Source: an uncultured Pelagibacteraceae bacterium
GTDB taxonomy: Bacteria; Pseudomonadota; Alphaproteobacteria; Pelagibacterales; Pelagibacteraceae
Assembly: GCA_902607625.1 (NCBI GenBank)
Contig: CACLKR010000004.1
Coordinates: forward strand, 1-64,000
Length of the DNA: 64,000 nucleotides
Direction: 5' to 3'
The number at the start of each line of letters is the position of its first letter. The stretch's first letter is position 1. The notes beneath the pieces are model-generated. The model searched no databases, was not told where the DNA came from, and saw only the letters and a program-made list of their open reading frames with translations. Positions 13,266 to 15,178 of the stretch are shown piece by piece. The translations under genes were made by a program, and so were the position numbers.

Positions 13266-13301
13266 GTTGGGTGTGTGTCAAAAAAAATTTTTCAAGTAAC
13301 C

Positions 13302-13350
13302 GAAAATCAAAAAATGTTAGTGTGATTGGTTACGAGCCTGACGCCCGTAC
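13302..13350 (-). repeat. tRNA-fMet-derived fragment A with conserved flank
   Basis: The stretch GAAAATCAAAAAATGTTAG and its continuation to about 13326 also occur at copy B (13808-13833). They are followed here by GGTTACGAGCCTGACGC, which matches the anticodon-arm part of the initiator tRNA (GGTTATGAGCCTGACG) with one change and lacks the T arm. Downstream it shares the CGTACC flank with copy C. This is the most degraded of three partial copies. It encodes no functional tRNA. Confidence 0.7.
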
Positions 13351-13351
13351 C

Positions 13352-13400
13352 TTTGGGGCAGCAATTAAATATTATAAACTTTTTTAAGTTCTACCCCAAA
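13352..13400. other. Nested inverted repeat downstream of cspA
   Basis: TTTGGGG (13352-13358) pairs with CCCCAAA (13394-13400), and the arms can extend inward past one mismatch to AG/CT. A second small inverted repeat (AACTT/AAGTT around a T4 loop, about 13378-13391) sits inside. It lies directly after tRNA-like fragment A and 25 bp past the cspA stop on that strand. It could be a transcript 3'-end structure or a remnant of a structured RNA. No T tract follows on either strand. Confidence 0.45.
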
Positions 13401-13425
13401 TGTTTTGAAATTTATTGAAATACGA

Positions 13426-13629
13426 TTAAGCTTTTTGCAGATTAACTGCGGAAGGACCTTTTTCGCCATTCTCAACATCAAATGTTAACGCATCACCTTC
13501 GTTTAACTCTAAGCTTGCTGCTTGAGCTGCAGAAGAATGAACAAAAACATCTTTTTCCTTATCTTCTCGTTCAATGAAACCATATCCTTTTTGTCCATTA
13601 AACCACTTAACTTTTCCTTTTATACTCAT
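13426..13629 (-). CDS. cspA: Cold-shock domain protein (CspA family)
   Basis: A 67-residue single cold-shock domain, the normal family length. RNP1 is seen as GQKGYGFIE (about 12-20) and RNP2 as DVFVHSSA (about 27-34). Such proteins bind single-stranded RNA/DNA and act as RNA chaperones. A purine-rich AGAAGA element lies a few bases before the ATG at 13629. The leader region 32-75 bp upstream contains two identical perfect hairpins. The gene stands alone inside the accessory region, between tRNA-fMet fragments A and B. Which csp paralogue it is cannot be decided. Confidence 0.93.
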
Positions 13630-13660
13630 TTTATCTTCTTTCTTTTTAGTTTAACTTTAA

Positions 13661-13704
13661 TTGTTAGAAAAAACTAACAACAAATTGTTAGAAAAAACTA
13701 ACAA
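13661..13704. promoter_or_regulatory. Twin perfect hairpin repeat upstream of cspA
   Basis: Two identical 20 bp palindromic units, TTGTTAG-A6-CTAACAA, lie at 13661-13680 and 13685-13704, separated by CAAA. Each has a perfect 7 bp stem. They sit 32-75 bp upstream of the cspA ATG, so they are either tandem operators in the promoter or paired stem-loops in the 5' leader. A weak terminator in the plus direction is unlikely because no T tract follows. Confidence 0.8.
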
Positions 13705-13805
13705 CAGTGAACCTTTAAATGGATTTAATAAGAAATGTCAAGTTAATATAATTATAATTTAAATTAGTAGTGTTCAGAGCGTGTTATCCAAATAATTTCT
13801 AGGCA

Positions 13806-13886
13806 ACTGAAAATCAAAAAATGTTAGTGTGATTGGTTGCGGAGGCTGGATTTGAGCCAGCGACCTTCAGGTTATGAGCCTGACGC
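13806..13886 (-). repeat. tRNA-fMet-derived fragment B (3' part of the tRNA) with conserved flank
   Basis: From 13834 to 13885 the sequence matches the intact tRNA-fMet from its CCA end through T arm, variable loop and anticodon arm with two differences, keeping the CAT anticodon. It stops matching at the D-arm side, where GCATATACCTT replaces the tRNA 5' half. The approximately 26 bp on the CCA side (from 13806) match the flank of copy A. It is a truncated copy with no 5' acceptor strand, typical of a duplicated attachment segment. Confidence 0.85.
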
Positions 13887-13893
13887 ATATACC

Positions 13894-13968
13894 TTAAGAT
13901 AGAATTGTAGCTATTACTAAAAGCACTAGAATTAGAGACCAAGAAGAGAAAAATAAAATTTTTACCAT
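13894..13968 (-). CDS. Possible 24-residue hydrophobic peptide
   Basis: A minus-strand ORF from ATG at 13968 to TAA at 13894 encodes MVKILFFSSWSLILVLLVIA followed by TILS, a single transmembrane helix with a lysine near its N-terminus. It lies next to tRNA-like fragment B. It has the look of a small membrane peptide such as a type I toxin, but its short length makes chance a real option, and no conserved family is recognised. Confidence 0.25.
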   Translation of the reverse strand: MVKILFFSSWSLILVLLVIATILS

Positions 13969-14362: not shown

Positions 14363-14447
14363 ATGGAAGGCTAAATTTTGGTTGCGAGGGTAGGATTTGA
14401 ACCTGCGACCTTTAGGTTATGAGCCTGACGCACGTACTTGGTTGCGC
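14363..14447 (-). repeat. tRNA-fMet-derived fragment C and an adjoining CCA-end remnant
   Basis: From 14379 to 14430 the sequence follows the intact tRNA-fMet from CCA end through anticodon arm, with several changes in the T stem that are partly compensatory. It then departs into CACGTAC, the same flank as in fragments A and B. On the CCA side the flank GGAAGGCTAAATTT is identical to that of the intact tRNA-fMet. Immediately after it, TTGGTTGCG (14439-14447) looks like the beginning of yet another copy cut to its CCA end. Confidence 0.82.

Positions 14448-15101: not shown

Positions 15102-15178
<77 letters not shown>

Follow-up and report, generated by a model that had tools for sequence, protein, structure and literature searches.

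The two identical palindromes upstream of the solitary cold-shock protein (csp) gene in the window (the whole stretch of 64,000 nucleotides that was analysed) probably represent a recent, exact 24-bp duplication of a 5'-terminal stem-loop that is carried by SAR11 csp mRNAs and would slow their decay. Judged by comparison of sequences, the single hairpin is conserved in the csp leaders of the Pelagibacteraceae, where its pairs covary, and the second copy seems to have arisen by tandem duplication not long ago.

The twin palindrome and its locus

The window belongs to an assembly of 927 kb in 33 contigs, estimated to be 77% complete, whose closest named kin are Pelagibacteraceae, the SAR11 group of bacteria, which is abundant in the ocean. 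The features of the csp leader are compiled in Table 1. Both palindromes are, as the first-pass annotation described them, exact, 20 bp long and 4 bp apart, and they lie 32–75 bp from the ATG at 13629. The loop had been given as A6 from a reading opposite to the gene strand; since the csp gene is on the minus strand, the loop of the transcript is UUUUUU, not AAAAAA. Shuffled sequences contain on average 0.8 matches to the palindrome per 64 kb with up to two mismatches, compared with two copies without mismatch side by side in the window, and no further copy was found in the 927-kb assembly with one mismatch permitted. A repeated genomic element was rejected because the motif is confined to the csp leader within the assembly, and an intrinsic terminator because the stems are not followed by a U-run. 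Only two of the 83 TTGAC sites in the window are accompanied by such a hairpin at the right distance, one of them being that of the twin-hairpin csp gene, and in this leader the promoter and the ribosome-binding site are found at their usual distances from the nearest hairpin.

Table 1. Features of the csp gene and its leader, in positions of the window
Feature	Position	Strand	Basis or remark
Cold-shock protein gene (67 aa)	13426–13629	minus	Pfam CSD, 85 bits
Hairpin 1 (5'-proximal), UUGUUAG-UUUUUU-CUAACAA	13685–13704	minus	conserved position, directly after predicted +1
Hairpin 2, exact copy of hairpin 1	13661–13680	minus	sequence
Exact 24-nt × 2 tandem repeat (family D4) that produced the twin	13659–13706	minus	repeat search
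-35-like box TTGACA	13736–13741	minus	TTGAC scan; same box before the hairpin in csp leaders of relatives
-10-like ATTTAAA	13714–13720	minus	sequence; TATTAAA/TATTTAA at the same place in relatives
Predicted +1	~13707–13708	minus	inferred from the promoter-like boxes
Purine-rich ribosome-binding region GAAAGAAG	13635–13642	minus	mostly unpaired in predicted folds at 15–37 °C
Hairpin GGGGUAG...CUGCCCC, just 3' of the csp gene	13355–13397	minus	sequence resembles the spacer of the genome's tandem csp pair

Several other observations were made at this locus. Pieces of tRNA-Met, all from its 3' part, are present at 13328–13353, 13870–13895 and 14415–14440, in steps of 0.5–0.7 kb beside an intact tRNA-Met at 15102–15178 on the minus strand, and a 52-nt direct repeat (85%) at 13283–13334 and 13790–13841 flanks the csp segment; the arrangement is suggestive of the addition of short cassettes at the tRNA. 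The tandem csp pair of the same genome (L006, G000:C8:18600-20000) has a GGGGCAG-type hairpin between its genes, and this is the spacer that the sequence following the solitary csp gene resembles.

The single hairpin in related leaders and its doubling

The csp leaders gathered from related genomes were reduced to 57 non-redundant sequences, and each was scored for its best hairpin in the region from 75 to 12 nt ahead of the start. In 41 of the 57 a strong stem precedes the ATG, with a score that is reached by 7% of dinucleotide shuffles and by 7 of the 59 window ORFs. A TTGAC (-35) box lies ahead of the stem in 33 of the 41 hairpin-bearing leaders, with a median distance of 35 nt from the box to the 5' end of the stem (range 26–50 nt, the 50-nt extreme being the window itself, where the scoring settled on the stem that lies between the twins, hairpin 1 itself being 37 nt from the box). 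From this spacing the stem is expected to begin near the predicted +1. The second genes of tandem csp pairs have a similar hairpin, but without a TTGAC box ahead of it. The other two csp genes of the window genome have single hairpins with different letters, TATTGTAGA-TTT-TCTACAATA and TTGTTAG-ATTAG-CTAATAA, and across the csp leaders the length of the loop varies from 3 to 8 nt.

In an alignment of 19 leaders the 8-bp stem is paired at 94.7%, and double changes that keep the pairing occur in six of the eight pairs. The double-change cells number 46, as compared with 16.2 expected from shuffles and 0–6 in controls with slid partners. With 46 leaders, double changes are present in all eight pairs (134 cells versus 41.5), in an alignment that was fitted to the covariance model built from the 19 leaders and hence leans to the structure. 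When this model (R1) was run against 60 genomes of the family, all 14 matches at E ≤ 0.001 lay directly upstream of csp genes. Weak members escape the model, and in the whole-genome search these included the leader of the window itself; 14 matches in 60 genomes is therefore a minimum, and it is only for strong matches that none lies away from csp genes. The stem thus carries the compensatory changes expected of a 5'-terminal stabilising stem-loop, and the first-pass annotation was right to suggest a paired RNA structure for the leader, with pairing kept while the letters of the stem differ.

The same annotation had also offered a tandem DNA operator for a dimeric repressor, a reading favoured by the position of the identical palindromes, shortly after promoter-like boxes. 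A selected RNA stem fits the persistence of pairing under changing letters better than an operator sequence does: the letters are not the same from species to species, nor among the three csp genes within this one genome, and the half-sites, which in an operator should be conserved across orthologues, are conserved within one subfamily only. The sequence is also absent elsewhere in the assembly and its loop is of inconstant length, and we consider an operator very unlikely.

A search of 397 genomes of the family for TTGTTAG-N3-9-CTAACAA gave two matches in one genome only, that of the window. The nearest counterparts (L036, L016/L040, L019 and the viral-labelled L128) hold one copy, with loops of U6–U8; L036 is from AG-464-P04 and, like the window, has a tRNA-Lys nearby. 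The alternatives of function or recent duplication raised by the first-pass annotation both seem to stand, for different things: it is the single hairpin that is conserved and covarying, and the doubling that appears to be recent. Likewise, the absence of the repeats upstream of orthologous cspA genes, named there as counter-evidence, is true of the doubling, which is in no other genome searched, and not of the hairpin. The chances are about even that the second copy, taken alone, reflects neutral slippage or an assembly artefact and has no effect of its own. An exact 24-bp repeat of a palindrome present in a single draft assembly would be explained in this way; the conserved single hairpin would be left untouched, and a neutral or artefactual copy is compatible with protection of the 5' end by that hairpin.

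A viral origin of the hairpin was rejected: a 5' hairpin of the SAR11 type was present in just two of the viral leaders looked at, L128 and L185, and both resemble leaders from SAR11 genomes. Genes similar to the csp gene of the window are common on IMG/VR viral contigs. Some of the viral csp leaders (L116, L150, L211) are GC-rich and structured in a way that differs from the SAR11 hairpin; two of them, L116 and L150, match the Rfam cspA family RF01766 below the gathering score. Among about 30 csp leaders sampled from other orders of Alphaproteobacteria, a hairpin in this position occurs in some only; in L256, L264, L274, L275, L278 and L280 it lies ~24–35 nt before the start. In the sister family of the order (L197, L199, L200, L201, L202 and L204) predicted folds pair a GUUCCU(U) of the csp leader with the AGGAA(U) of the ribosome site, and by these folds the leader is of a different, site-sequestering type.

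Predicted folds and proposed roles in message decay and Csp binding

Predicted minimum-energy folds of the twin leader at 15, 25 and 37 °C include both hairpins and leave the start region mostly open. The mean predicted pairing of this region is 0.13, 0.18 and 0.29 at 37, 25 and 15 °C, respectively, and is not contributed by the hairpin stems; at 5 °C a refolded leader is predicted, in which the pairing of the start region rises to 0.50. A single hairpin has a predicted energy of -5.2 kcal/mol at 37 °C and -10.3 kcal/mol at 10 °C. A switch between the twin and one long hairpin is disfavoured: the energies of the two are close (-11.2 versus -11.5 kcal/mol at 37 °C), but it is the twin that is preferred from 30 °C down.

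The proposal that the structure melts or refolds with temperature is therefore unsupported in the form of a switch at the ribosome site, because both hairpins are kept from 15 to 37 °C with the start mostly open and pairing rises in the cold. In the broader form, in which shifts in the stability of an A/U-rich stem with temperature would alter decay or translation of the message, a temperature-responsive leader draws on the change in stem energy and on the refolding at 5 °C, but any short stem is stabilised by cold, the predicted closing of the start region in the cold is the reverse of cold induction of translation, and the window has no match to an Rfam thermoregulator. We regard it as improbable.

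Since the start region is mostly open at 15–37 °C, the hairpin appears to be placed to guard the 5' end and not the ribosome site, and the ribosome site lies outside the stem, as expected of a 5'-terminal stabilising stem-loop. In the mechanism that we favour, transcription would begin within a few bases of the stem, and the transcript would consist of a small hairpin followed by ~20–40 nt of A-rich, mostly unpaired leader holding the ribosome site. The paired 5' end would block both removal of the 5' triphosphate by RppH and the 5' end-dependent pathway of RNase E, and the short csp message would in consequence be long-lived. Up to ~5 unpaired nucleotides may precede the stem, which would weaken the protection. 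The duplication would add a second barrier, with promoter and ribosome site untouched. This reading draws on the presence of both enzymes in most relatives, on the hindrance of RppH and RNase E by 5' structure (PMC3997798) and on the precedent of Staphylococcus aureus cspA mRNA, whose stabilisation, with a half-life going from <2.5 to >16 min, has been tied to a short hairpin at the 5' end (PMC3386247). Of 40 genomes, 35 have genes for RNase E/G and 32 have RppH above the cut-off; no RppH turned up in the window's assembly, which is 77% complete.

In the subfamily of solitary csp genes, the letters of the hairpin are kept as well as its pairing: across five leaders, that of the window and those of the single-copy counterparts named above, none of the 20 stem and loop columns varies, compared with 27 of 67 other leader columns (Fisher p = 0.0002, for a set picked after the pattern had been seen). 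On this alignment, fixed letters in addition to pairing are more than a pure end protector would need. Csp binding at the U-rich loop would be the main rival of end protection, or an addition to it. The U6–U8 loop of the subfamily would fit one Csp molecule, so that accumulating Csp could bind the leader of its own message, with two loops taking up two molecules. In support, loops are U-rich overall (53% U, compared with 21% in the leader that follows), U-rich RNA is bound by E. coli CspE and CspC (PMC4520561), and E. coli CspA is reported to stimulate, in the cold, the translation of the message that encodes it (PMC9947658). The invariance of stem and U-loop belongs to the post hoc choice of five leaders, however, and most loops of csp leaders are only 3–5 nt long and include AAT, ATA, AATAA, GAAA and ATTA; an oligo-U loop is therefore not the conserved feature, and a feedback site of this kind seems rather unlikely. 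Slightly more doubtful still is an undescribed csp-specific 5'-terminal element in which the stem would hold a U-rich docking loop for Csp and couple the level of Csp to the lifetime of the mRNA in cells with few transcription factors, the copy number of the hairpin tuning the set point.

Relation to known leader elements

The kind of element, a 5'-terminal stem-loop, is known. For the SAR11 csp element no description was found in Rfam 15 or by a word search of the text available from PMC2704228 and PMC2864571: the scan of window and leader with Rfam 15 gave no csp element, the cspA thermoregulator RF01766 had no match in the window at the gathering score and none at E up to 5 over 13300–13900, and the word search of these two motif papers turned up no csp motif. 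In oligotrophic bacteria whose genomes are reduced, SAR11 among them, transcription regulators are comparatively few (PMC13198564), and for Ca. P. ubique post-transcriptional control based on Csp has been put forward (PMC2864753). A strongly covarying element of csp leaders provides a concrete part with which this idea can be probed.

The 5' stem-loops of E. coli ompA and papA, which act against RppH and RNase E, share with the SAR11 element a short stem at or near the 5' end (predicted in SAR11) and an open ribosome site downstream, whereas the SAR11 element is found at csp genes, is doubled in one genome and was found by comparison of sequences. The E. coli cspA leader (RF01766) is likewise a structured csp leader; it is longer and refolds with temperature, whereas the leader in the window has a predicted length of ~80 nt and contains two hairpins, or one in relatives. 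The 5'-UTR hairpin of S. aureus cspA (cspAS) is, like that of SAR11, a short 5' hairpin on a csp mRNA, and the S. aureus message is reported to be stabilised (PMC3386247). The S. aureus hairpin is a product of RNase III, which cuts a leader containing a 32-bp helix; in SAR11 the DNA itself encodes the short hairpin at the predicted start.
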